From: Chitinophagaceae bacterium
GTDB lineage: Bacteria > Bacteroidota > Bacteroidia > Chitinophagales > Chitinophagaceae
Direction of reading: 5' to 3'
Assembly (NCBI GenBank): GCA_017853575.1
Contig: JAFMJI010000001.1
Location: forward strand, 310,001 to 374,000
DNA length: 64,000 nucleotides
Part shown: piece by piece, positions 30,038 to 46,830 of the stretch
Position numbering within the stretch: position 1 is the stretch's first letter
Layout: each line of letters starts with the position of its first letter
Position numbers and translations under genes: made by a program
Notes under the pieces: generated by a model
The model's database searches: none
What the model was told of the DNA's origin: nothing
Seen by the model: only the letters and a program-made list of their open reading frames with translations

Positions 30038-30439
30038 ATGCATAAAATTGAACATATAGCCATCGCAGTCAAATCACTTTCGACTTCCGTTCCACTTTTC
30101 GAAAAAATCTTGGGAACCCCCTGCTACAAAACCGAGGAAGTGGAGAGCGAAAAAGTTAAAACTGCTTTCTTCAAAACAGGAGAAAACAAAATTGAGCTTT
30201 TGGAAGGGATGGATCCGGAAGGGGTTATTGCAAAGTTCATTTCCAAAAAAGGTGAGGGTTTACACCATATTGCACTTGGAGTGGAAAATTTGGAGGAGAG
30301 AATTACTGCTTTAAAAACAGAGGGCTTTGAGTTTATCAGCGAAGTGCCCAAAAAGGGGGCTGATAATAAAATAATTGTTTTTCTGCATCCAAAATGTACC
30401 AATGGTGTTCTGGTAGAGTTGTGCCAGGAAATAAATTAA
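30038..30439 (+). CDS. mce: Methylmalonyl-CoA epimerase
   Basis: Interconverts the (R) and (S) forms of methylmalonyl-CoA in propionate/succinate interchange. 133 residues with a vicinal-oxygen-chelate (glyoxalase) fold: KIEHIAIAVKSL with a metal His at the start, KIELLEGMDPEG near 47, GEGLHHIALGVENL near 71 and the metal Glu in CTNGVLVELCQE near 126. The LLEG and GLHHIA patterns are those of the epimerase rather than general glyoxalases. Methylmalonyl-CoA mutase is B12-dependent, and the B12-dependent NrdJ is encoded nearby, which fits a cobalamin-using cell, although the mutase itself is not in this window. Confidence 0.92.
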   Translation: MHKIEHIAIAVKSLSTSVPLFEKILGTPCYKTEEVESEKVKTAFFKTGENKIELLEGMDPEGVIAKFISKKGEGLHHIALGVENLEERITALKTEGFEFISEVPKKGADNKIIVFLHPKCTNGVLVELCQEIN

Positions 30440-30453
30440 CACCTAAAATTTCA

Positions 30454-31164
30454 TCACAGATTTAATTTCTCTACTGCATTCTGTGCAGCAATCTGCCCGG
30501 CGTCTTTTTTGTTGAAAGCACGACCTTCAGCAATGATCTCACCATCTACAATGGCACCGACTGTAAAAAGCCTTCTGCCGTTTTCCATTTTTTCATCAAT
30601 GGTTTCAAACTCCAATAGCTTACCAGAACGGTTTGCCCAACTAAAGAGTTTATTTTTTTGGTTGATTTCAACTTGCTCAAGGTCTTCTATAAACAGATGA
30701 GGGATGATGATTTTTTTAAAAACCCATTTCTTGGTAGCTGCATATCCCCTGTCAATGTAAATCGCTCCCACCAATGCTTCCAGGGCATTGCCAAAAATTT
30801 GACTGGATTTCAATGATCCATCTTGTTTATTATAAGAGGTGATCTTTTTAAATCCCATTCGAATGGCAATGTCATTCAGCATCTGGCGATTCACCATCTT
30901 GCTTCTCATTTCAGTTAAAAAACCTTCGCCTTTGTATGGGTATTTCATGAAGAGGTAGTCTGCAATAATTCCTCCGAGGATGGCATCACCCAAATATTCC
31001 AAACGCTCGTTGTTATCAGTAGCTTTTTCTTTGATGGAGCGGTGAGAGAGCGCAGCAATGTATAAACTAATACTTCCCGGGGTGAAACCAAGCAAATAAA
31101 CCAGGTGTTTCAGGAATTCCTTCCGATTGCGATTGCTGAATATATAATACAGTCTGTAAAGCAC
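30454..31164 (-). CDS. rnc: Ribonuclease III
   Basis: Double-strand-specific endoribonuclease for rRNA processing and mRNA turnover. 236 residues with the signature NERLEYLGDAILGG at about 52-65, metal-binding Asp/Glu downstream (NALEALVGAIYIDRG near 127) and a double-stranded-RNA-binding domain at the C-terminus (FSWANRSGKLLEFETIDE, ending AEGRAFNKKDAGQIAAQNA). The frame starts at GTG (31162-31164); there is no upstream ATG before an in-frame stop. It follows fabF and acpP on the same strand, the acpP-fabF-rnc order widely conserved in bacteria. Confidence 0.96.
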   Translation of the reverse strand: MLYRLYYIFSNRNRKEFLKHLVYLLGFTPGSISLYIAALSHRSIKEKATDNNERLEYLGDAILGGIIADYLFMKYPYKGEGFLTEMRSKMVNRQMLNDIAIRMGFKKITSYNKQDGSLKSSQIFGNALEALVGAIYIDRGYAATKKWVFKKIIIPHLFIEDLEQVEINQKNKLFSWANRSGKLLEFETIDEKMENGRRLFTVGAIVDGEIIAEGRAFNKKDAGQIAAQNAVEKLNL

Positions 31165-37184: not shown

Positions 37185-37502
37185 CGTGTGTCGTATGTTA
37201 GTTTTTCGAATGGTTTTTTATTTTAATGACAGTTTACGAAAATATCCCTGCTCACTCTCTTTTCAAACCTCTAAATATCAACACCCTGTTGATAACTGCA
37301 ACAATCCGCAAGGGGATTGAATTTGCTATTTTTTACACGTTTTTTGTAAAAAAAATTTTGGACAAATAGATAAAAATAAATAGATCGTACTATGACCCTA
37401 TTTGCATATGGAGATGAGATACATTATTAATTTCTATCAAACCAAAGAATATTCGTGTTTTCTAACAAAGTTTTTCGCACATTTGCATAGAAGATTAACT
37501 GC
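37185..37502. other. Divergent nrdJ/GGGPS intergenic region with two inverted repeats
   Basis: 318 bases without a gene. Near nrdJ is a perfect inverted repeat at 37276-37294 (TATCAACA, CCC, TGTTGATA) whose arms resemble DnaA boxes, and at 37302-37319 a second one (CAATCC, six-base loop, GGATTG). The rest is AT-rich; I see no ORF of note and no strong TAnnTTTG box for either gene. Confidence 0.6.
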
Positions 37503-38267
37503 ATGCTGACATCAACCTATGATAAAATTGTCCAACTCAAACGCGAGAACAGAAAGGCTTTCACAGTTCTCGTTGATCCAGATAAAACAACTTTGAAGAA
37601 AGCAGATGAACTTGTTTCACTGTGCACAAAGGCAAATGTTGATTTTATTTTTGTTGGTGGAAGTTTGGTTGTCAGCGATCATTTAGAAGAGCTAGTACAA
37701 CACATCAAATCATCCTGTGATATCCCGCTGTTGCTCTTCCCAGGCAGTCCATCTCAGGTTACCCCATATGCAGATGCATTGTTGTATCTCTCTCTCATAT
37801 CAGGCAGAAATCCCGAATACCTGATTGGTCAACATGTAATTTCAGCCCCTGCTGTTAAAAAAAGTGGACTCGAAGTCATTCCTACAGGATACATGTTAAT
37901 TGATGGTGGAGCACCTACCACCGTTTCGTACATCAGCAATGCGAATCCTATTCCAACAGATAAAAATGAGATTGCTCTCTGTACTGCCCTTGCAGGAGAA
38001 ATGCTCGGATTGAAGCTTCTTTACATGGATGCTGGAAGTGGCGCCAAACAACCTATTCAAGAGGGCATGATCCACGCAGTTGCCTCTCAGGTAAACATCC
38101 CCATCATAGTTGGAGGAGGTATCACAACTCCTGAAAAAGCCTATAACAATAGCAAGGCAGGTGCCGATATAATTGTAGTGGGGAATGCCATCGAAAAGGA
38201 CACTACGTTGATCTTGGAAATAAGCCAGGCTGTACACAGCATCAAAACTGTTGCCAACCCCCACTGA
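37503..38267 (+). CDS. Geranylgeranylglyceryl/heptaprenylglyceryl phosphate synthase family
   Basis: Prenyltransferase that joins a polyprenyl diphosphate to sn-glycerol 1-phosphate, the first committed step of archaeal ether lipids; the family also occurs in Bacteroidota. 254 residues of a TIM-barrel: TVLVDPDKTTLKKADEL near residue 20, FIFVGGSLVVSDHLEEL near 52, LFPGSPSQV near 79, LISGRNPEYLIGQHV near 100, LLYMDAGSGA near 180 and VGGGITTPEKA near 203. Length and these motifs fit the bacterial group II enzymes. The product chain length and its use in a bacterium are not established from sequence. Confidence 0.9.
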   Translation: MLTSTYDKIVQLKRENRKAFTVLVDPDKTTLKKADELVSLCTKANVDFIFVGGSLVVSDHLEELVQHIKSSCDIPLLLFPGSPSQVTPYADALLYLSLISGRNPEYLIGQHVISAPAVKKSGLEVIPTGYMLIDGGAPTTVSYISNANPIPTDKNEIALCTALAGEMLGLKLLYMDAGSGAKQPIQEGMIHAVASQVNIPIIVGGGITTPEKAYNNSKAGADIIVVGNAIEKDTTLILEISQAVHSIKTVANPH

Positions 38268-38363
38268 TAGCCGAAAGTATTCGCCCCCAATTAGAAGCAT
38301 TTTTCAGAAAAATTGCGTTTATTTGCAGTTCATAATTTTTCTTAAATACTTAGACACAGAAAA

Positions 38364-38492
38364 ATGAAAAAAAACCTAACCCTCACAACAATAGCAGAAA
38401 CGGTGCATACCGCTTCCACGCGTTGGGTTTTTGCTGTACCATCTGTTACAGTTTTTTTTAGCAGGCCGATTCCGTTTTTAGTACGACGTTGA
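38364..38492 (+). CDS. Candidate 42-residue leader peptide of the arginine operon
   Basis: ATG at 38364-38366, TGA at 38490-38492, ahead of the operon by 98 bases. The peptide opens MKKNLTLTTIAETVHTAS, has Thr-Arg-Trp at 19-21 and ends with a tandem Arg-Arg (CGA CGT) directly before the stop; four of 42 codons are Arg (20, 34, 41, 42). A hairpin of CTGTA/TACAG arms followed by eight T lies within the frame at codons 24-32, starting about ten bases after Arg codon 20. A ribosome paused at Arg20 would cover the hairpin's first arm and so favour read-through, as expected for arginine control. I recognise no known leader family. The hairpin is short, so attenuation is a hypothesis. Confidence 0.5.
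   Translation: MKKNLTLTTIAETVHTASTRWVFAVPSVTVFFSRPIPFLVRR
38433..38459 (+). terminator. Weak terminator-like hairpin inside the leader ORF
   Basis: CTGTA at 38434-38438 pairs with TACAG at 38447-38451 around an eight-base loop, followed by eight T (38452-38459). The stem is only five pairs (six with a G-T), weak for a stand-alone terminator; it lies in the frame of the candidate leader peptide. Confidence 0.35.
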
Positions 38493-38590
38493 TAGTTACC
38501 ACCCCCCCTCAGCTACGATTGATTCGATAAGCTGGATTCATTACATGTAGTGGGTCCTGGCATCAATTAATTACAACTCATCAATTCAAA

Positions 38591-39292
38591 ATGGAACAAC
38601 AATCTTTCAATATATACATCGCCAGTGAAGCAGATTTCAAATTTGCAGAAGAAATCTGTACAGAAATGGAAGAGTCTGCAAAAGCACGCGGTACGGGCAT
38701 CGCAAAGAGAAGTCCTGAATACGTGAAAAAGAAAATGAGTGAAGGAAAGGCCGTAGTAGCAACAACTGAAAATGGCGAATGGGCAGGCTTCTGCTACATA
38801 GAAACATGGAGCCATGGAGAATATGTGGCCAACTCCGGACTCATCGTAAAACCAATCTTCAGAAAAAGTGGATTAGCGAAATCCATTAAAAAGAAAATAT
38901 TTGAACTCAGCAGAAAAACATATCCCGATTCAAAAATATTTGGATTGACCACAGGACTTGCTGTGATGAAAATCAATTCTGAACTCGGATACGAACCGGT
39001 AACGTATTCTGAACTCACCCAAGATGAAGACTTTTGGGCAGGATGCAAAAGTTGTGTGAATTATGAAATCCTCATGAGCAAAGAAAGAAAAAACTGTATG
39101 TGCACTGCAATGTTGTATGATCCAAAAGACCACTACAGCCCCGAGGAGACCACACAATATTTTGAAGAAAATAAAAAAGGATTCGAAAGACTATTCAGTT
39201 TCAAACAATTCAATTTTCTCAAAACATTCACCAAAAAAGACAACAACAGCAAATCAATCATTGGAGCATTGCTTTCACTCCTGAATATTTAA
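38591..39292 (+). CDS. GNAT acyltransferase at head of arginine operon
   Basis: Likely the first pathway enzyme, acylating the amino group of glutamate; no classical argA or argJ occurs in the operon. 233 residues with a GNAT core at about 5-145: VVATTENGEWAGFCYIETW, GLIVKPIFRKSGLAKSIKKKI (CoA-binding region, near 83) and SELGYEPVTYSELTQDEDFW. After the core are four cysteines in a C-x2-C-x13-C-x-C spacing: Cys152, Cys155, Cys169, Cys171. They suggest a metal site or redox control. The donor could be acetyl-CoA or, given the downstream transcarbamylase, succinyl-CoA. It is 10 bases before argG. The role is inferred from position; GNAT membership is seen. Confidence 0.75.
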   Translation: MEQQSFNIYIASEADFKFAEEICTEMEESAKARGTGIAKRSPEYVKKKMSEGKAVVATTENGEWAGFCYIETWSHGEYVANSGLIVKPIFRKSGLAKSIKKKIFELSRKTYPDSKIFGLTTGLAVMKINSELGYEPVTYSELTQDEDFWAGCKSCVNYEILMSKERKNCMCTAMLYDPKDHYSPEETTQYFEENKKGFERLFSFKQFNFLKTFTKKDNNSKSIIGALLSLLNI

Positions 39293-39302
39293 AAAAGAAA
39301 TT

Positions 39303-40502
39303 ATGTCAAAGAAAATTGTACTTGGATTCAGTGGCGGATTGGATACGACATTCTGTGTAAAATATTTATCCGAAGAAAAAGGATATGAAGTGCACAGCAT
39401 CATTGTAAACACAGGTGGATTCAGCGAAGATGAGCTCAAGAAAATAGAGGCGCATGCCCACAAACTCGGTGTTGCTTCTCATACAACCGTGAACGCTGTA
39501 GAATCTTATTACAACAGCATCATCAAATATTTAATATTCGGAAATGTATTGAAGAACAATACGTATCCATTGAGTGTAAGTGCTGAAAGATTAAGTCAAG
39601 CTATTCACATTGCAGAACATGTCAAAAAATTAGGTGCAAGCGCGGTCGCACACGGCAGCACAGGTGCTGGAAATGATCAGGTAAGATTTGACATGGTATT
39701 CCATATCATGATTCCTGGTGTAGAAATCATCACACCCATACGCGACTTAAAACTTAGCCGAGAGGAAGAGATCAGCTATCTCCAATCAAAAGGAGTAGAG
39801 ATGAATGCTGAAAAGGCAATGTATTCTATCAACAAAGGTCTTTGGGGTACCAGTGTTGGGGGAAAAGAAACCCTTTCATCCAAGGGAATGCTTCCTGAAG
39901 CTGCATGGCCTACTCAAGTAACAAAACATGATGCTGAAGAAGTTGTATTGAGTTTTAAAAAAGGTGAATTGGTTGCTTTGAACGATAAAAAATTCTCACA
40001 CCCTTCAGCAGCTATTCAATATCTGCAAACAATAGCAGGTCCGTTTGGAATTGGAAGAGATATACATGTTGGAGATACCATCATCGGAATCAAAGGCAGG
40101 GTTGGATTTGAAGCTGCAGCTCCAATGGTGATTTTAAAATCACATCATGCATTAGAAAAACATGTGCTAACAAAATGGCAGCTGCAATGGAAGGATACCC
40201 TCTCTCAATTTTATGGAAACTGGTTGCATGAAGGTCAAATCCTAGATCCAGTAATGCGTGATATTGAATCTTTCCTCCAGCATTCTCAAGAACATGTTAA
40301 CGGAAAAGTATTTGTTCAATTACAGCCTTACAGATTCCAGATCATTGGAATTGAATCATCATACGATTTAATGAACAGCAAGTTTGGAAAATATGGAGAA
40401 ATGAACTCAGGGTTCACTGGTGAAGATGTAAGAGGATTCAGCAAAATATTCGGCAACCAAACCATTATTTGGAATGCCGTTCAACAAGAAAATAAAAAAT
40501 AA
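39303..40502 (+). CDS. argG: Argininosuccinate synthase
   Basis: Condenses citrulline with aspartate using ATP to give argininosuccinate. 399 residues. The ATP-binding loop VLGFSGGLDTTFCVKYL lies at about residues 5-21, AHGSTGAGNDQVRFD near 118, and the C-terminal synthase segments (DRDIHVGDTIIGIKGRVGFEAAAP-like pattern near 255-275, GFTGEDVRGFSKIFGNQ near 375) are present. It is second in the operon, 10 bases after the GNAT and six before argC. Confidence 0.95.
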   Translation: MSKKIVLGFSGGLDTTFCVKYLSEEKGYEVHSIIVNTGGFSEDELKKIEAHAHKLGVASHTTVNAVESYYNSIIKYLIFGNVLKNNTYPLSVSAERLSQAIHIAEHVKKLGASAVAHGSTGAGNDQVRFDMVFHIMIPGVEIITPIRDLKLSREEEISYLQSKGVEMNAEKAMYSINKGLWGTSVGGKETLSSKGMLPEAAWPTQVTKHDAEEVVLSFKKGELVALNDKKFSHPSAAIQYLQTIAGPFGIGRDIHVGDTIIGIKGRVGFEAAAPMVILKSHHALEKHVLTKWQLQWKDTLSQFYGNWLHEGQILDPVMRDIESFLQHSQEHVNGKVFVQLQPYRFQIIGIESSYDLMNSKFGKYGEMNSGFTGEDVRGFSKIFGNQTIIWNAVQQENKK

Positions 40503-40507
40503 GCATT

Positions 40508-41488
40508 ATGAAAGCAACCATCAGGACAGGCATCATCGGCGGAGCTGGTTATACAGGCGGTGAACTGATCCGTCTGTTGCTTCATCACCCAAACACTGAA
40601 TTGACATTTGTTCACAGCAAAAGCAATGCAGGAAATAAATTATACCAAGTACACGAAGATTTAATTGGTTCAACTGAACAAACATTTACAGAAAATATCA
40701 ATCAAGATATTAATATCCTTTTTCTGTGTCTTAGTCATGGTGAGTCTTCAAAATTTCTTCAAGAAAATGTGATTGATGATCGCATCAAGATCATTGATCT
40801 TGCAAATGATTTTCGATTGAAAGAACAGTCAAAAATCGGTAATAGAGTATTTACCTATGGCCTTCCTGAATTGAACTTTGAAGAAATTCAAACATCAAAT
40901 AACATTGCAAACCCGGGATGTTTTGCAACTGCCATACAATTAGGACTTCTTCCATTGGCGAAAAAATCTCTGTTAAAAGATGTCTACTCAACAGGCATTA
41001 CAGGATCCACTGGTGCCGGACAGTCACTCTCGGCAACAAGTCACTTTTCCTGGAGATCAAACAATATTCAGGCTTATAAAACACTTACCCATCAACACCT
41101 TGGGGAAATACATCAGTCACTTCATCAATTGAATTCCAAAAATGCATCTGTACATTTTGTACCATGGAGAGGTGACTTCACAAGAGGAATTTTTATTTCA
41201 TCCACCATAGATGCCAGTGTTTCAATAGAGGAGGCCAACGATATCTATAAGGAATACTACAAGCAACATCCTTTTACAATTGTTTCAGACAAGCAAATCT
41301 CTATGAAACAAGTAGTAAATAGCAACAAGGCAGTCATTTTTATTGAAAAACAAAACGATAAACTTGTCATACATAGCGCAATTGATAACTTGTTAAAAGG
41401 TGCGAGTGGACAAGCAGTGGAGAACATGAATATTATGTTCGGGCTGGATCAGACAACCGGACTACATTTAAAACCTTCAGCTTTTTAA
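40508..41488 (+). CDS. argC: N-acyl-gamma-glutamyl-phosphate reductase
   Basis: NADPH-dependent reduction of the acyl-glutamyl phosphate made by ArgB to the semialdehyde. 326 residues. Rossmann start GIIGGAGYTGGELIRLLLHHP, catalytic Cys138 in ANPGCFATAIQLGLLPL, and the active-site His region HQHLGEIHQSL near 197. Whether it prefers acetyl or succinyl substrates cannot be read from sequence alone, but the ArgF paralogue in this operon suggests succinyl. It lies between argG and argD with short spacers. Confidence 0.95.
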   Translation: MKATIRTGIIGGAGYTGGELIRLLLHHPNTELTFVHSKSNAGNKLYQVHEDLIGSTEQTFTENINQDINILFLCLSHGESSKFLQENVIDDRIKIIDLANDFRLKEQSKIGNRVFTYGLPELNFEEIQTSNNIANPGCFATAIQLGLLPLAKKSLLKDVYSTGITGSTGAGQSLSATSHFSWRSNNIQAYKTLTHQHLGEIHQSLHQLNSKNASVHFVPWRGDFTRGIFISSTIDASVSIEEANDIYKEYYKQHPFTIVSDKQISMKQVVNSNKAVIFIEKQNDKLVIHSAIDNLLKGASGQAVENMNIMFGLDQTTGLHLKPSAF

Positions 41489-41497
41489 ACCATTGCG

Positions 41498-42640
41498 ATG
41501 AAACTATTCGACGTATATCCTATCAACAATATCAACATCACCCATGCCAAGGGGTCCAAGGTATGGGATGAACATAACAATGAATATCTGGATTTATATG
41601 GCGGGCATGCAGTGATCAGCATCGGACATACACATCCGCACTGGGTTCATCGCATTGAAGAGCAATTGAAAAAAATTGCATTCTATTCCAACTCCATAAA
41701 AATTCCAATTCAGGAGGAGCTTGCACATAAACTGGGGGAAGTGTCAGGAAAAAAAGACTATCAATTGTTTCTATGTAACTCTGGTGCAGAGGCAAATGAA
41801 AACGCATTAAAACTTGCATCCTTTCACACAGGCAGAAAAAAGATCATTGCTTTCAGCAAATCATTTCATGGAAGAACTTCTCTTGCTGTTGCTGCAACCG
41901 ACAACCCATCCATTGTTGCACCAGTCAATCAAACAGACAATGTAATTTTCCTACCCTTCAACAACACAGAAGCATTGGAAGAAGCATTCAAAAAACATGG
42001 AAATGAACTTGCTGCTGTAATAGTAGAAGGCATTCAGGGTGTAGGAGGTATCAATGTCGCAGAGAAAAATTTTTTACTTTCCATTAGAAAAAATTGCGAT
42101 CAATACGGCGCTGTATATATTGCCGACAGTGTACAATGCGGTTATGGAAGATCAGGTATATTTTTTAGCCATGATCATGCGGGAGTAGAAGCAGATATCT
42201 ATACAATGGCAAAAGGAATGGGCAACGGATTTCCAATAGGTGGAATCATTATATCTCCATCGTTGAAAGCAAAACATGGAATGCTGGGAACCACTTTTGG
42301 TGGCAACCATCTTGCATGTGCAGCAGCATTGGCAGTATTGGAGGTAATTGAAAAAGAAAATCTAATACAACATGCATCAAAAGTTGGAGAATTTTTATCT
42401 GCATCGTTGCGATCAATCTCCCCGCTGAGTGGAGTTAGAGGAATGGGATTGATGATTGGGTTTGATGTACCTGAACAACTTAATAACCTAAAGAAAGACC
42501 TCTTATTCAAATACAGAATTTTTACTGGGGAAGCAAAGCCCAATGTAATCAGACTACTTCCTTCCCTTGCACTCAGCATGGAGGATGCAGCATATTTTAT
42601 TCAGCACTTAAAGCTGGCCATCGAACAATACCAAGACTAA
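41498..42640 (+). CDS. argD: Acylornithine aminotransferase
   Basis: PLP-dependent transfer of an amino group from glutamate to the acyl-glutamate semialdehyde. 380 residues, class III aminotransferase. PLP contacts: NSGAEANENALKLA near 94, SKSFHGRTSLAVAATDN near 120, the aspartate in YIADSVQCGYGRSG at about 208-220, and the Schiff-base Lys239 in TMAKGMGNGFPIGG. The common DEVQTG signature is DSVQCG here, a mild change. Operon position between argC and argF' defines its step. Confidence 0.94.
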   Translation: MKLFDVYPINNINITHAKGSKVWDEHNNEYLDLYGGHAVISIGHTHPHWVHRIEEQLKKIAFYSNSIKIPIQEELAHKLGEVSGKKDYQLFLCNSGAEANENALKLASFHTGRKKIIAFSKSFHGRTSLAVAATDNPSIVAPVNQTDNVIFLPFNNTEALEEAFKKHGNELAAVIVEGIQGVGGINVAEKNFLLSIRKNCDQYGAVYIADSVQCGYGRSGIFFSHDHAGVEADIYTMAKGMGNGFPIGGIIISPSLKAKHGMLGTTFGGNHLACAAALAVLEVIEKENLIQHASKVGEFLSASLRSISPLSGVRGMGLMIGFDVPEQLNNLKKDLLFKYRIFTGEAKPNVIRLLPSLALSMEDAAYFIQHLKLAIEQYQD

Positions 42641-42646
42641 CTGATC

Positions 42647-43606
42647 ATGAAACAATTTCTATCTGCCCACGATGTACAAAATATTCCTGCCATTATTCAG
42701 GATGCGCTGACATACAAATCCGCTCCATGGAAAGATGAAAACTTGGGAAAGCATAAAAAGTTGGGCTGCTTGTTCATGAACCCAAGCATGCGAACTAGAT
42801 TGAGCACCCAAATTGCAGCACAACAATTGGGAATGGAAACCGTGGTTTTTAATGTAGGCAACGAAGGATGGGCATTGGAATTTGCAGATGGAGCAATCAT
42901 GAATGGCACTACTGTTGAACATGTAAAAGATGCTGCCCCCATCATGGGAAATTATTTTGACCTGCTTGCAGTGAGAACATTTCCTGGATTGAAAGATCGG
43001 GAAGCAGATTATAGTGAACACATCATGCACCAGTTTATTAAATATGCAGGTATCCCAGTGATCAGCTTGGAAAGCGCCACCTTACACCCCCTGCAAAGTT
43101 TAACGGATCTGATTACCATCAATGAAACAATTCAAACAACAGGTTTCAAAAGAAAACCAAAAATAGTTTTGAGCTGGGCACCTCATGTAAAGCCCTTGCC
43201 TCAATGCGTAGCCAACAGTTTTTCACAATGGGTGAATGCTTGGGGTGTGGCCGATTTTGTCATCACTCATCCTGAAGGGTATGCATTGGAAAAAAAATTT
43301 ACCGAAGGGGCAACCATTGTACACCAACAAGAAGAAGCTCTCAAAGACGCAGATTTCGTCTACATAAAAAACTGGAGTTCATATGAACAATATGGCACCA
43401 TGCCTGCATATGAAGGCGAATGGATGCTCACGAATAAAAAATTGGCACTAACCAATCAGGCAAAGGTGATGCATTGCCTTCCTGTCCGACGAAATGTAGA
43501 ACTATCCGATGAAATACTCGATGGGCCAAACAGCCTGGTAACAAAACAAGCAACAAACAGGGTTTGGGCTGCACAGGCAGTAATAGCCTCGATGCTCAAA
43601 TCATAA
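42647..43606 (+). CDS. Acylornithine carbamoyltransferase, succinyl-type by prediction
   Basis: Transfers a carbamoyl group from carbamoyl phosphate to an N-acylated ornithine, so citrulline is formed before deacylation. 319 residues. Carbamoyl-phosphate loop MNPSMRTRLST at about 44-54, the lid segment NEGWALEFADGAIMNGTTVEH at 72-92, HPLQSLTDL near 147 and HCLPVRRN near 275 match the N-acetyl/N-succinylornithine branch and not the plain ornithine enzymes. The residue that sets acyl specificity (Glu92 in the Xanthomonas acetyl enzyme, Pro90 in the Bacteroides fragilis succinyl enzyme) is Val90 here. From memory of published work, replacing Glu92 by Val turned the acetyl enzyme into a succinyl one, so succinylornithine is predicted. 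Confidence 0.9.
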   Translation: MKQFLSAHDVQNIPAIIQDALTYKSAPWKDENLGKHKKLGCLFMNPSMRTRLSTQIAAQQLGMETVVFNVGNEGWALEFADGAIMNGTTVEHVKDAAPIMGNYFDLLAVRTFPGLKDREADYSEHIMHQFIKYAGIPVISLESATLHPLQSLTDLITINETIQTTGFKRKPKIVLSWAPHVKPLPQCVANSFSQWVNAWGVADFVITHPEGYALEKKFTEGATIVHQQEEALKDADFVYIKNWSSYEQYGTMPAYEGEWMLTNKKLALTNQAKVMHCLPVRRNVELSDEILDGPNSLVTKQATNRVWAAQAVIASMLKS

Positions 43607-43617
43607 AACAAAAAAAT

Positions 43618-44397
43618 ATGGATCCACTGTACATTATAAAAGTTGGTGGCAATATCATTGATGACGATCAAAAGCTGAAAAGTTTTCTCACTGAATTTGC
43701 AAAAATTCAAGGAAAGAAAATTCTAGTGCATGGTGGTGGTAAACTTGCAACAAAACTTGCGCAAGACCTTTCCATTCAACAACATATGGTGGATGGAAGA
43801 AGAATTACTGATGCGGAAACATTAAAGATTGTTACAATGGTGTATGCAGGATTGATCAACAAACAAATGGTTGCTCAACTGAATGCCTTGGGATCCACTT
43901 CCATAGGGATTTGCGGCGCAGATGCCAATACCATTGTTGCACATAAAAGAGAACATCCCAGTATCGATTTTGGATTCGTAGGGGATGTTGATAAAGTCAA
44001 TACCAGCATGTTGCTTACGTTATTAAATGAAAACATCAACATAGTAATTGCCCCCATCACACAAGATGCAAATGGTCAACTCTTGAACACAAACGCTGAT
44101 ACAATTGCACAAGAGATTGCAAAAGCGATGTCAAAAAACATGGATACAACCCTTGTTTACTCATTCGAAAAGAAAGGTGTAATGAGAGATGTGAATGATG
44201 AAACATCAGTTATTTCAAAAATAGACAAAGAGGCTTTCACTAAATTGAAAGAAGAAAATGCCATTTTTGCTGGAATGATTCCAAAATTAGACAATGCCTT
44301 TACTGCCATATCAGCGGGTGTTTCAAGGGTCATCATCGGTGATGCAATAGAATTGAGCATGTTAATCAAGGGAGAGAGCGGAACAACCATTCATTAA
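43618..44397 (+). CDS. argB: N-acylglutamate kinase
   Basis: Phosphorylates N-acylglutamate with ATP. From the ATG at 43618 it is 259 residues; a TTG further upstream would overlap argF'. Amino-acid kinase motifs are clear: YIIKVGGNIID at about 5-15, ILVHGGGKLAT near 36 (glycine-rich), VDGRRITDAETL near 57 and the Asp-containing NTNADTIAQEIAKAM near 160. The stop is nine bases before argE. The step is usually feedback-inhibited by arginine in the long form; this shorter type lacks the N-terminal helix linked to that, by comparison with known families. Confidence 0.94.
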   Translation: MDPLYIIKVGGNIIDDDQKLKSFLTEFAKIQGKKILVHGGGKLATKLAQDLSIQQHMVDGRRITDAETLKIVTMVYAGLINKQMVAQLNALGSTSIGICGADANTIVAHKREHPSIDFGFVGDVDKVNTSMLLTLLNENINIVIAPITQDANGQLLNTNADTIAQEIAKAMSKNMDTTLVYSFEKKGVMRDVNDETSVISKIDKEAFTKLKEENAIFAGMIPKLDNAFTAISAGVSRVIIGDAIELSMLIKGESGTTIH

Positions 44398-44406
44398 AAA
44401 ATCAAC

Positions 44407-45516
44407 ATGTCTACACTCCATCATATTCAACAAGATGCCATTCAACTTCTAAAGAAGATGATTGCAACCCCTTCTTTCAGCAAAGAAGAAAAAGAAGTTG
44501 CAGACTTGATAGAATCATTTCTGAAGGAGCATGGTGTTCCCACCCACCGTATCTTAAACAATGTGTATGCATTGAATAAATATTTCGATGCATCAAAACC
44601 AAGTATCCTACTCAACTCACACCATGATACAGTAAAACCCGCAAAGGGTTATACAACAGATCCTTTTACACCTACTGAACAAGATGGAAAAATCATCGGA
44701 TTGGGGAGCAATGATGCCGGCGGACCATTGGTTGCATTGATTGCAACATTTATACATTTTTATTTGAATGACGCACTGCACATCAATTTGATCATCGCTG
44801 CAACTGCAGAAGAAGAAATCTCTGGCAAAAACGGTGTCGAATACTTGCTGCAGGATCCAGGATTTCTGCAGCACCTGCAAGGGAGTAAAATTGTTGGTGC
44901 CTTGGTTGGTGAGCCTACTAACATGCAGATGGCTGTTGCGGAAAGAGGCCTACTGGTATTAGATGGATTGGCATCAGGAAAAGCAGGGCACGCAGCCCGT
45001 GAAGAAGGCATCAATGCCATTGGAATTGCAATGGATGATATCCATGCGATCAACAATCATCCGTTTCAAAAAATATCAGATCTAACTGGCAAGACAACTG
45101 CAAAAGTTACTGTCATCGAAACAGACAATAAAGCACACAATGTCATACCTGCACAATGCAAATTTGTAATTGATGTAAGGGTAAATGAGCTCTACTCTTT
45201 TGATGATGTATTACAACAACTGCAATCCATTTCTTCAAGCAATCTTACGCCGAGAAGCTTCAGGTTGAGATCCACAATGATTGCGCTGGATCATCCTATT
45301 GTGCTTGCAGGCAAAAAACTTGGATTGAACCACTATGGATCTCCTACAACAAGCGATAAAGCCCTCATGCATTTTCCAGCATTGAAAATAGGTCCTGGTG
45401 ATTCTGCAAGAAGTCACACCGCAGATGAGTATATTTATATAAAGGAAATTGAACAGGGAATTGAAATCTTCATTCAAATAATGGAAGAATCATCAAAAAG
45501 CTATCATTTCTCATAA
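44407..45516 (+). CDS. argE: N-acyl-citrulline/ornithine deacylase (M20 family)
   Basis: Zinc M20 amidohydrolase that removes the acyl group; because the carbamoyltransferase acts on acylated ornithine, the true substrate is probably acyl-citrulline. 369 residues. Metal ligands: LLNSHHDTVKP near 72 (His, Asp), GLGSNDAGGPL near 98 (Asp bridge), AATAEEEISGKNG near 130 (catalytic Glu then metal Glu) and GPGDSARSHTADEYI near 338 (His). A dimerisation domain lies at about 175-290 (GLASGKAGHAAREEGINAI). It lies between argB and argH. Confidence 0.92.
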   Translation: MSTLHHIQQDAIQLLKKMIATPSFSKEEKEVADLIESFLKEHGVPTHRILNNVYALNKYFDASKPSILLNSHHDTVKPAKGYTTDPFTPTEQDGKIIGLGSNDAGGPLVALIATFIHFYLNDALHINLIIAATAEEEISGKNGVEYLLQDPGFLQHLQGSKIVGALVGEPTNMQMAVAERGLLVLDGLASGKAGHAAREEGINAIGIAMDDIHAINNHPFQKISDLTGKTTAKVTVIETDNKAHNVIPAQCKFVIDVRVNELYSFDDVLQQLQSISSSNLTPRSFRLRSTMIALDHPIVLAGKKLGLNHYGSPTTSDKALMHFPALKIGPGDSARSHTADEYIYIKEIEQGIEIFIQIMEESSKSYHFS

Positions 45517-45525
45517 TCATCTATT

Positions 45526-46830
45526 ATGAAACTCTGGAAAAAAGACAATACATCGACTTCAAAACTGATAGAAGATTTTACCGTTGGTAATGACAAAGAT
45601 TTTGATATCCTACTGGCGAGATTTGATGTTGAGGGATCCATTGCCCACGTTACCATGCTTGGAGAACAGGGCTTGATGAACAAAGAAGATGCAAACAAAG
45701 CGATCGCAGGTCTTAAAAAAATTTATGAAAGCATATTAAATGGAACATTCAAAATTGATGCAAGCATGGAGGATGTTCACTCACAGGTTGAATGGATGCT
45801 CACAAAAGAAATAGGCGATGCGGGAAAAATGATCCATACAGGCAGAAGCAGAAATGACCAAGTGGCAGTCGACATCAAATTGTATCTGAGATCATCAATG
45901 GTAGAAATCAAAGAAGATGTCTTAAAACTTTTCAATTTACTGATTGAAAAAAGCAATCAACACAAACAAGATCTTATCCCAGGATATACCCATCTTCAAA
46001 TTGCCATGCCATCATCCGTAGGACTATGGCTTGGGGCTTACGCAGAAAGCCTGGTGGATGATATGGAGATTCTTGCAGCTGCATTTCATGTGACCAATAA
46101 AAATCCGCTTGGAAGTGGTGCAGGTTATGGTTCATCATTTCCATTGAACAGAAAAAGAACCACAGAACTTTTGCATTTTAAATCCCTCAACTACAACTCA
46201 GTGTATGCACAGATGAGCAGGGGGAAAACAGAAAAACTCGTGGCATCAGCCATTGCTTCTATTGCATCAACACTCAGCAAACTGGCAATGGACAATTGCC
46301 TGTACCTGAATCAGAATTTTGCATTCATTTCATTTCCTGATGAGCTAACTACAGGCAGCAGCATCATGCCACACAAAAAAAATCCGGATGTATTTGAGTT
46401 GATACGTGGAAAATGCAACCGAATTCAGGCTGCACCCAATGAGCTTACATTGCTCACCAACAACCTGCCTTCGGGCTATCACAGAGAAATGCAATTGACA
46501 AAGGAAATCTTATTCCCAGCCATTCAATCTCTTCGACAATGTATTGAAATGATGCACCTGATGTTGAGCGCATTATCGGTGAATAAGAATATTCTTCAAG
46601 ACAAAAAATATACTTACCTGTTCAGTGTTGAGAAGGTAAATGAACTGGTTAACAAAGGAATTCCATTCAGAGATGCATATGTGCAGGTAGGAAATATGAT
46701 CAATGAAGGAAACTTTCAATTTGATCCATCACAATCATTGAAACATACACACGAAGGAAGCATTGGAAATCTCTGCAATGAAGAAATTGTATCAGAGATG
46801 AAAAAAATTGCCTCTGCTATTTCCATTTAA
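45526..46830 (+). CDS. argH: Argininosuccinate lyase
   Basis: Splits argininosuccinate into arginine and fumarate, completing the pathway. 434 residues. The superfamily signature TTGSSIMPHKKNPDVFE is near residue 276, with substrate contacts HTGRSRNDQVAVDIKLYLR near 105, GYTHLQIAMPSS near 153 and PLGSGAGYGSSFP near 197. It is the last gene of the operon; its end overlaps the convergent gldD end by 14 bases. Confidence 0.96.
   Translation: MKLWKKDNTSTSKLIEDFTVGNDKDFDILLARFDVEGSIAHVTMLGEQGLMNKEDANKAIAGLKKIYESILNGTFKIDASMEDVHSQVEWMLTKEIGDAGKMIHTGRSRNDQVAVDIKLYLRSSMVEIKEDVLKLFNLLIEKSNQHKQDLIPGYTHLQIAMPSSVGLWLGAYAESLVDDMEILAAAFHVTNKNPLGSGAGYGSSFPLNRKRTTELLHFKSLNYNSVYAQMSRGKTEKLVASAIASIASTLSKLAMDNCLYLNQNFAFISFPDELTTGSSIMPHKKNPDVFELIRGKCNRIQAAPNELTLLTNNLPSGYHREMQLTKEILFPAIQSLRQCIEMMHLMLSALSVNKNILQDKKYTYLFSVEKVNELVNKGIPFRDAYVQVGNMINEGNFQFDPSQSLKHTHEGSIGNLCNEEIVSEMKKIASAISI

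Follow-up and report, generated by a model that had tools for sequence, protein, structure and literature searches.

The arginine biosynthesis operon of this Chitinophagaceae bacterium is preceded by a short open reading frame which, judged from its conservation, is a real leader peptide of the operon, and which probably acts in cis as a ribosome-read sensor of arginine for the genes behind it. The latter reading is favoured because the frame is conserved, arginine is retained with free choice of codon across families, a covarying hairpin followed by a U-run lies within the frame, and ArgR is absent. The window, that is, the whole stretch of 64,000 nucleotides that was analysed, carries the operon in the order GNAT-argGCDFBEH with the leader upstream (Table 1). 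The leader contains Arg codons at positions 20 (CGT), 34 (AGG, 38463-38465) and 41-42 (CGA CGT, 38484-38489), the last pair being directly followed by the TGA stop codon (38490-38492). A preliminary description of this DNA had reported a 42-codon frame ahead of the arginine operon with Arg20 and tandem terminal Arg codons, which is what is found; the AGG at codon 34 is an extra Arg codon that it did not list.

Table 1. Features of the leader region and the arginine operon (positions in the window)
Feature	Position	Strand	Remarks
Promoter-like TTTATTTGCA	38318..38327	+	TTTG[CT] 41-54 nt 5' of the leader ATG in 38/39 class A rows
Leader peptide ORF	38364..38492	+	ATG to TGA, 42 codons, MKKNLTLTTIAETVHTASTRWVFAVPSVTVFFSRPIPFLVRR; homologues in relatives; frame survives long in-frame inserts
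P1, 5' strand	38370..38378	+	A-tract right after the start codon; pairs with 38424-38432
Hairpin H1 (GAAACGG/CCGCTTC)	38397..38416	+	Inside P1; consensus fold of 17 class A1 rows
Arg20 codon CGT	38421..38423	+	36/36 aligned class A rows; no Arg there in 6/19 further leaders
P1, 3' strand TGGGTTTTT	38424..38432	+	Directly 5' of H2
Hairpin H2	38434..38451	+	CTGTA 38434-38438 / TACAG 38447-38451; inside the ORF; covarying
Eight-T run	38452..38459	+	Immediately 3' of H2
Terminal Arg codons and stop, GTACGACGTTGATA	38481..38494	+	CGA CGT, stop TGA and two more bases; codons conserved; putative sensor
Hairpin H3, after the leader stop	38510..38534	+	-7.0 kcal/mol; 0/200 shuffles as stable; shape varies by subgroup
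Hairpin H4	38535..38558	+	-6.5 kcal/mol; 12/200 shuffles as stable
GNAT-family protein, first gene of the operon	38591..39292	+	Sub-cut-off Pfam GNAT matches; operon context; PMC7311316, PMC9026213
argG, argC, argD, N-acyl(ornithine) carbamoyltransferase, argB, ArgE/DapE-type deacylase, argH	39303..46830	+	Best NCBIfam matches

Of the NCBIfam matches in the operon, those of argG, argC, argB and argH exceed their cut-offs, and those of argD, of the carbamoyltransferase and of the deacylase fall short; the best match of the carbamoyltransferase is N-acetylornithine carbamoyltransferase, just under its cut-off. The first gene of the operon gave only weak Pfam GNAT matches below the cut-off and no NCBIfam match. 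It probably encodes an ArgA2-type N-acylglutamate synthase, a role suggested by the operon context and by passages of two papers, in which the GNAT of Bacteroidetes arg operons is assigned to the opening step of the arginine pathway, the likely activity being that of an N-succinylglutamate synthase (PMC7311316; PMC9026213). A search of the window against Rfam gave only a tRNA and no match to the leader at the curated thresholds, and a relaxed search (E up to 5) of nine leader loci returned nothing relevant. A scan of positions 37400-39400 for sigma-70 promoters and terminators gave nothing useful, and H2 was not among its listed sites. The promoter-like sequence upstream of the leader resembles TAnnTTTG, the Bacteroidota -7 element, and places a predicted transcription start at about 38330.

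In order to trace the leader among relatives, GNAT homologues were taken from 37 of 60 related genomes and from the best 80 loci of a longer scan. The resulting 110 upstream regions included 13 exact duplicates, and 8 of the remaining 97 represented the same contig in two collections, leaving 89 distinct contigs. The leader is present in 92 of the 97 regions and in 85 of the 89 distinct contigs of the family, where it falls into two classes: class A, to which the window belongs (53 regions, 46 contigs), and a sister class B (39 contigs). Four contigs lack it: L020 and L024 are cut by contig ends, and L088 and L096 carry a divergent non-ATG frame ending in LLRRPRI. After removal of near-identical rows 39 distinct class A leaders were left, and all of them end in Arg-Arg-stop. 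A covariance-model search added 19 class A leaders that all differ from these 39, and Arg-Arg-stop is terminal in each of them as well. The frame also tolerates in-frame inserts, which lengthen the leader to 51 codons in L074, 64 in L057 and 79 in L100; these three were left out of the codon and DNA alignments, which thus hold 36 of the 39 rows. At L100:882-1121, ahead of GNAT, an 11-residue unit beginning with YGRPAP occurs three times in full and once in part within the 79-codon leader.

Of 117 family genomes, 22 contain a single site matched by the covariance model and 16 a single match to the class B pattern, with no genome shared between the two sets; of these 38 sites, 36 loci were checked and all adjoin GNAT. 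In the window the model matched positions 38364-38496 with 125.9 bits. Two far weaker matches on the minus strand, at 42047-42172 (25.2 bits, opposite argD) and 30332-30454 (13.4 bits), are probably due to chance. The search for homologues of the 42-residue peptide that the preliminary description had proposed thus revealed them ahead of GNAT-arg operons with the frame and the Arg codons conserved, and not the lack of conservation that it had named as the argument against a leader.

What is conserved differs between the two classes. Among the 16 leaders of class A1 synonymous sites differ in a median proportion of 0.213, versus 0.761 for a GNAT block of the same genomes, and the leader RNA is therefore constrained; the comparison of synonymous sites, another check that had been proposed, accordingly speaks for the leader. 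Residues preceding Arg-Arg are variable in class A (PFLVRR, PFRVRR, CLWLRR, LSDLRR, VFFRVRR). The class A variants RWVF and RGFF are encoded by nearly one RNA string (CGTTGGGTTTTT and CGTGGGTTTTTT) read one base apart, which points to conservation of the RNA rather than of the peptide. For class B the rates were computed from the 21 of 39 leaders having the canonical 40 codons; here synonymous differences amount to 0.580 versus 0.785 in the GNAT block, with pN/pS of 0.19 versus 0.11. Class B leaders also retain a long peptide stretch, ILTHTKQxAFHAPITSGVYxVG, and from these alignments the constraint in class B seems to lie on the peptide.

These data bear on the possibility that the leader is an arrest peptide, whose nascent chain would stall the ribosome at high free arginine and repress the operon, in the manner of TnaC or of the fungal arginine attenuator peptide, a eukaryotic uORF before an arginine pathway gene in which the nascent chain senses free arginine. 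Class B fits this explanation, since its peptide is kept while synonymous sites drift, at a pN/pS near that of GNAT. Class A shares with the fungal system a small ORF but shows no conserved C-terminal residues and no fixed end peptide beyond Arg-Arg; together with its constrained synonymous sites and the two peptides read from almost the same RNA, this makes an arrest peptide unlikely.

Sensing of arginine by a translating ribosome, which remains the preferred reading, is in class A accompanied by RNA structure within the frame itself. Hairpin H2 is, on the evidence of covariation, a real RNA element: all six of its pairs are changed on both sides among the 36 aligned class A rows, 89.4% of cells are paired, and an unguided column-pair scan ranked it first among helices. 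The long-range helix P1, whose 3' strand adjoins H2, is paired in 93.8% of cells of the 36 rows, with double-sided changes in two of nine pairs and four pairs invariant. The covariation score of P1, H2 and H2b together is 0.181 versus 0.106 in shuffles, none of 500 shuffles reaching the observed value, and the P1-H1-H2 segment folded alone gives a z of -2.10. Base changes in H1 are matched in a by-eye reading of rows such as L022, L025 and L031. In the window H2 has a stability of -4.4 kcal/mol, including a flanking G-U pair, and is one of the weaker stems.

The preliminary description had noted the CTGTA/TACAG hairpin and the eight T, but had placed the latter about ten bases further on; the hairpin is confirmed and covaries, and the T-run starts right at the end of the stem, which makes the element more terminator-like than had been supposed. 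At least five T within seven bases after H2 are present in 32 of 36 rows, the run being degraded in L021, L023, L029 and L105. Conservation of the T-run extends to synonymous positions, codons V30 and F31 being GTT and TTT in 33 of 36 rows each, versus usages of 32% GTT and 61% TTT in nine genes of the stretch. H2 and the T-run thus show the order of stem and U-run by which intrinsic terminators are recognised, although the stem in the window is weak. An in-ORF hairpin with T-run is present in 39 of 39 class A leaders versus 16.8 (maximum 21) in codon-order shuffles, and in 19 of the 19 further leaders versus 7.2 (maximum 12); in a few class A rows the best such site is one other than H2. In class B such sites are no more frequent than in shuffles (10 of 38 versus 12.9), and among 59 leaders from other families the excess is modest (25 versus 15.2, maximum 21). 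Comparable T-flanked hairpins inside the frame were observed in other families at L122, L128, L139, L175, L120 and L121.

Several further elements within the frame were considered. The small hairpin before Arg-Arg is broken in the window, and H2b, located before Arg-Arg, has no pair with double-sided changes, or one in a shorter alternative. A helix that would compete with H2, formed by its 5' arm and the codons before Arg-Arg, is complementary in 85.6% of cells, a value reached by 58 of 500 shuffles; its covariation is not clear, and it is suggestive only. A helix between the A-tract and the U-run behind H2 was rejected as mostly low complexity, as the 90.9% of complementary cells still amounted to 79.4% after a slide by one base. 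A -1 frameshift at GTT TTT TTA was likewise rejected on inspection by eye, codon 32 being TTA in just 12 of 36 rows and the shifted frame stopping quickly in the window.

The hairpin and T-run, whose conservation is described above, had led the preliminary description to propose that, when arginine is low, a ribosome stalled at Arg20 covers the first arm of H2 and so blocks intrinsic termination at the T-run. Position 20 is Arg in each of the 39 distinct class A leaders, with CGT in every aligned row, but this conservation is also explained by the adjacency of the codon to P1. Among the 19 further class A leaders Arg20 is missing in six and shifted by one residue in a seventh; the six of 58 class A leaders without it keep the hairpin, the T-run and Arg-Arg. 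Canonical class B leaders have Ser, Thr or Cys at this position and keep the terminal Arg codons, and by eye many of 28 leaders from other genomes have no Arg at a corresponding position. The geometry is likewise unfavourable. The ribosome footprint reaches about +15 from the first base of the P site, and with Arg20 in the A site protection should extend to about 38433, one base short of the H2 stem, which begins at 38434 and therefore stays free. Arg20 is thus a weak candidate for the sensor, the stalled ribosome is not expected to cover the first arm of the hairpin, and the model as a whole is improbable.

Sensing most likely takes place at the terminal Arg pair, which is favoured because it is what persists throughout these comparisons. 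In the 36 class A rows codon 41 is CGA in 35, codon 42 is CGT in all, and the stop codon is TGA in 35. The tail Arg-Arg had been put forward as a second pause; the pause itself is retained as a proposal, and its rank is reversed, since the pair is a better-supported sensor than Arg20. A ribosome at the terminal pair has already passed H2 and the T-run, so stalling there could not decide termination at that site on the same transcript.

The region behind the leader stop was examined for elements through which such stalling could act. The hairpin announced at 38510-38534 is indeed present (H3 in Table 1), and hairpins similar to H4 were recognised by eye in L003, L004, L005 and L033. The full leader up to the GNAT start folds no better than shuffles (z -0.59), and by rule no terminator-like site was found between the leader stop and GNAT in the window row (L002). 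Across classes such sites occur in 14 of 39 class A leaders versus 4.3 in shuffles (maximum 8), in 14 of 39 class B leaders versus 2.6 (maximum 5), and in 18 of 59 leaders of other families versus 10.2 (maximum 14). They exceed the shuffles yet are scattered and mostly weak, so that no conserved intrinsic terminator is present between the leader stop and GNAT. Equilibrium folding with ribosome masks gave no clear switch either, the accessibility of the GNAT start changing from 0.50 to 0.57 in class A and from 0.50 to 0.52 in class B.

The post-stop RNA of class B is almost invariant. An 8-bp stem, CTGACAGG/CCTGTCAG, starts one base before the stop codon and is paired in all 36 scanned rows (39 less three near-duplicates), and an inner stem covaries. 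The whole element, CTGACAGGACGARCC..ACC..GGYCCCTGTCAGTGAA, was observed in L068 and 38 other loci, near-invariant and with the leader stop codon taken into the stem. It is present as a single copy in each of 16 of the 117 family genomes, and the density of its invariant bases, as seen in this alignment, is closer to that of a riboswitch aptamer than to that of an attenuator. In other families, L118, L122, L128 and L129 have a post-stop hairpin with a UACGY loop that, by eye, could pair with GCGUA or CGUA just 3' of Arg-Arg-stop.

The occurrence of the leader beyond the family was assessed with a GNAT profile, which matched 120 of 346 genomes of the class, presumably Bacteroidia, and gave 123 upstream regions, 7 of them from the window's own family. 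ORFs were required to start with ATG, to comprise 12-70 codons, to stop 35-220 nt upstream and to have at least three Arg in the last ten codons. Such an ORF was found in 55 of the 123 regions, 4 from the own family and 51 from outside it, whereas dinucleotide shuffles (20 rounds) gave a mean of 2.4 and a maximum of 5, the reverse strand yielded 6, and none of eleven other residues exceeded 9; because related genomes are not independent, the shuffle counts overstate the significance. The ORFs have a median length of 41 codons and come from 23 of 37 family labels. Their 201 Arg codons comprise 57 CGA, 56 AGG, 38 CGC, 25 CGT, 15 AGA and 10 CGG.

This codon usage bears on the explanation that the leader serves translation coupling, protection of the mRNA or reinitiation, its Arg codons being kept for their rarity and not for sensing. 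In the window the leader ends in CGA CGT, and in nine genes of the stretch CGA and CGT account for 12% and 7% of 68 Arg codons, versus 62% for AGA, which speaks for this explanation; the choice of the CGA/CGT tRNA may itself matter for sensing. In other families, however, all six Arg codons are employed, and AGG is almost as frequent as CGA. Leader genes close to structural genes may aid reinitiation in general, according to PMC4833913, which gives 11-14 bp as the peak of leader-structural gene distances in Bacteroidetes; the median distance of 98-116 nt between leader stop and GNAT is far from this peak. A role unrelated to arginine also agrees poorly with a single site per matching genome and with GNAT at every checked locus. 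This explanation is accordingly very improbable.

ArgR is the usual arginine regulator elsewhere and controls arg operons, and in some genomes of the class, such as G223, it adjoins GNAT; nevertheless, ordinary control by ArgR with an incidental ORF is scarcely credible for the window's genome (99.62% complete), which has no match to PF01316 at E up to 1 or to PF02863 at E up to 0.001 and in which the leader is conserved, barring an ArgR too diverged for both Pfam models. In the class as a whole PF02863 was found in 15 of 346 genomes. Of the 120 genomes with GNAT, 10 gave a strong ArgR match (70-83 bits); their regions include none with at least three terminal Arg and one with two, versus 55 with at least three and 69 with at least two among the other 113 regions. 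In 44 of these 113 no ATG leader with at least two terminal Arg was found, so the leader is common, not universal, among regions without strong ArgR. Genome G167, which has a rule-meeting leader, gave a PF02863 match of 25 bits that barely exceeds the curated cut-off and is interrupted by a stop, and was counted as lacking ArgR; counted the other way, the leader would be present in 1 of 11 versus 54 of 112.

If the leader is read by the ribosome as an arginine sensor, it would be transcribed from its own promoter and then translated. When arginyl-tRNA is short, the ribosome would stall at the terminal CGA CGT and expression of the GNAT-arg genes would rise; when arginine is plentiful, it would reach the stop codon and expression would fall. 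We infer the promoter, the translation of the leader, the stalling and the direction of the response, and the conservation of the frame is consistent with translation. In the preferred, though tentative, scheme for the window's class, P1, H2 and the U-run may form a checkpoint inside the frame, after which stalling at the terminal Arg codons would steer the RNA behind the stop codon. Acting as a pause site or a weak terminator, the checkpoint would retain RNA polymerase until the arrival of the first ribosome, which melts it, in the manner of the trp 1:2 pause hairpin. The coupled ribosome and polymerase would then reach the Arg codons, and stalling would set the fold of the post-stop RNA and hence transcription (or Rho action) further on. 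An extension of this scheme to many ArgR-less Bacteroidota, as a new attenuation architecture in place of the repressor, is more speculative still and on balance doubtful: at a checkpoint of U-rich stretch, hairpin and U-run inside the frame, only transcripts with a pioneer ribosome close behind would pass, and the arginine decision would be made at the terminal codons, with no downstream terminator, through RNA folding from the stop codon onwards. The counterpart in class B would be the near-invariant hairpin whose stem holds the stop codon.

Like classical attenuators such as E. coli trpL and hisL, the leader has a short ORF before a biosynthetic operon, in which codons for the end product stand close to the stop, with hairpins both within the ORF and behind it. 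It differs in the amino acid, arginine, in the placement of the U-run hairpin within the frame, 5' of the putative sensing codons, and in the lack of a conserved terminator ahead of the first gene. As such a downstream terminator was looked for and not found, the leader is not assigned to the classical attenuators; it probably works like ribosome-mediated attenuation, as a new variant. The Bacteroid-trp motif, a leader RNA of an amino-acid operon of Bacteroidota, is the same kind of leader RNA at the level of the phylum but concerns tryptophan, not arginine, and Rfam gave no match here. ArgR/AhrC, in contrast, is a protein repressor; it has no match in the window's genome, and none of the 10 GNAT genomes with strong ArgR carries a leader with at least three terminal Arg. 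In a passage on Flavobacterium psychrophilum, structured 5' regions with indications of leader peptides are placed before amino-acid biosynthesis operons, which the passage leaves unnamed; phylum and general idea are the same as here (PMC9723704). The speF mRNA leader of Salmonella adopts an arginine-dependent conformation, as stated in the title of PMC6386406, but there it controls polyamine synthesis in another phylum, whereas here the operon is for arginine synthesis.

The window's own genome also contains candidate leaders of other amino-acid operons. L274, on contig C10, has a candidate his leader, MSVFLNKHHHHISPKR, before hisG, followed by a stem of -11.1 kcal/mol and six T. L277, on contig C36, has a candidate trp leader with one Trp, MKLFNTNNGWHTIS, before trpE, followed by a stem of -15.6 kcal/mol and a T-rich tail. 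Given the strong stem and T-run after each, classical attenuation is probably used at these two operons; the H2 stem of the window, in comparison, has -4.4 kcal/mol. The leu genes of the same genome have no obvious leader.

Among open-access papers, judged by titles and the beginnings of abstracts, no account was found of leader peptides for arginine at bacterial arg operons, nor a description of the control of arginine synthesis in ArgR-less Bacteroidota. The leader raises the puzzle of what effect stalling at the end of the ORF has where no terminator follows. It provides a ready marker for the arg operon and would add arginine to the amino acids whose own biosynthesis is under leader-peptide control. 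A class-wide arginine leader, occurring mainly where ArgR is absent, would, if true, answer how ArgR-less Bacteroidota control the synthesis of arginine.
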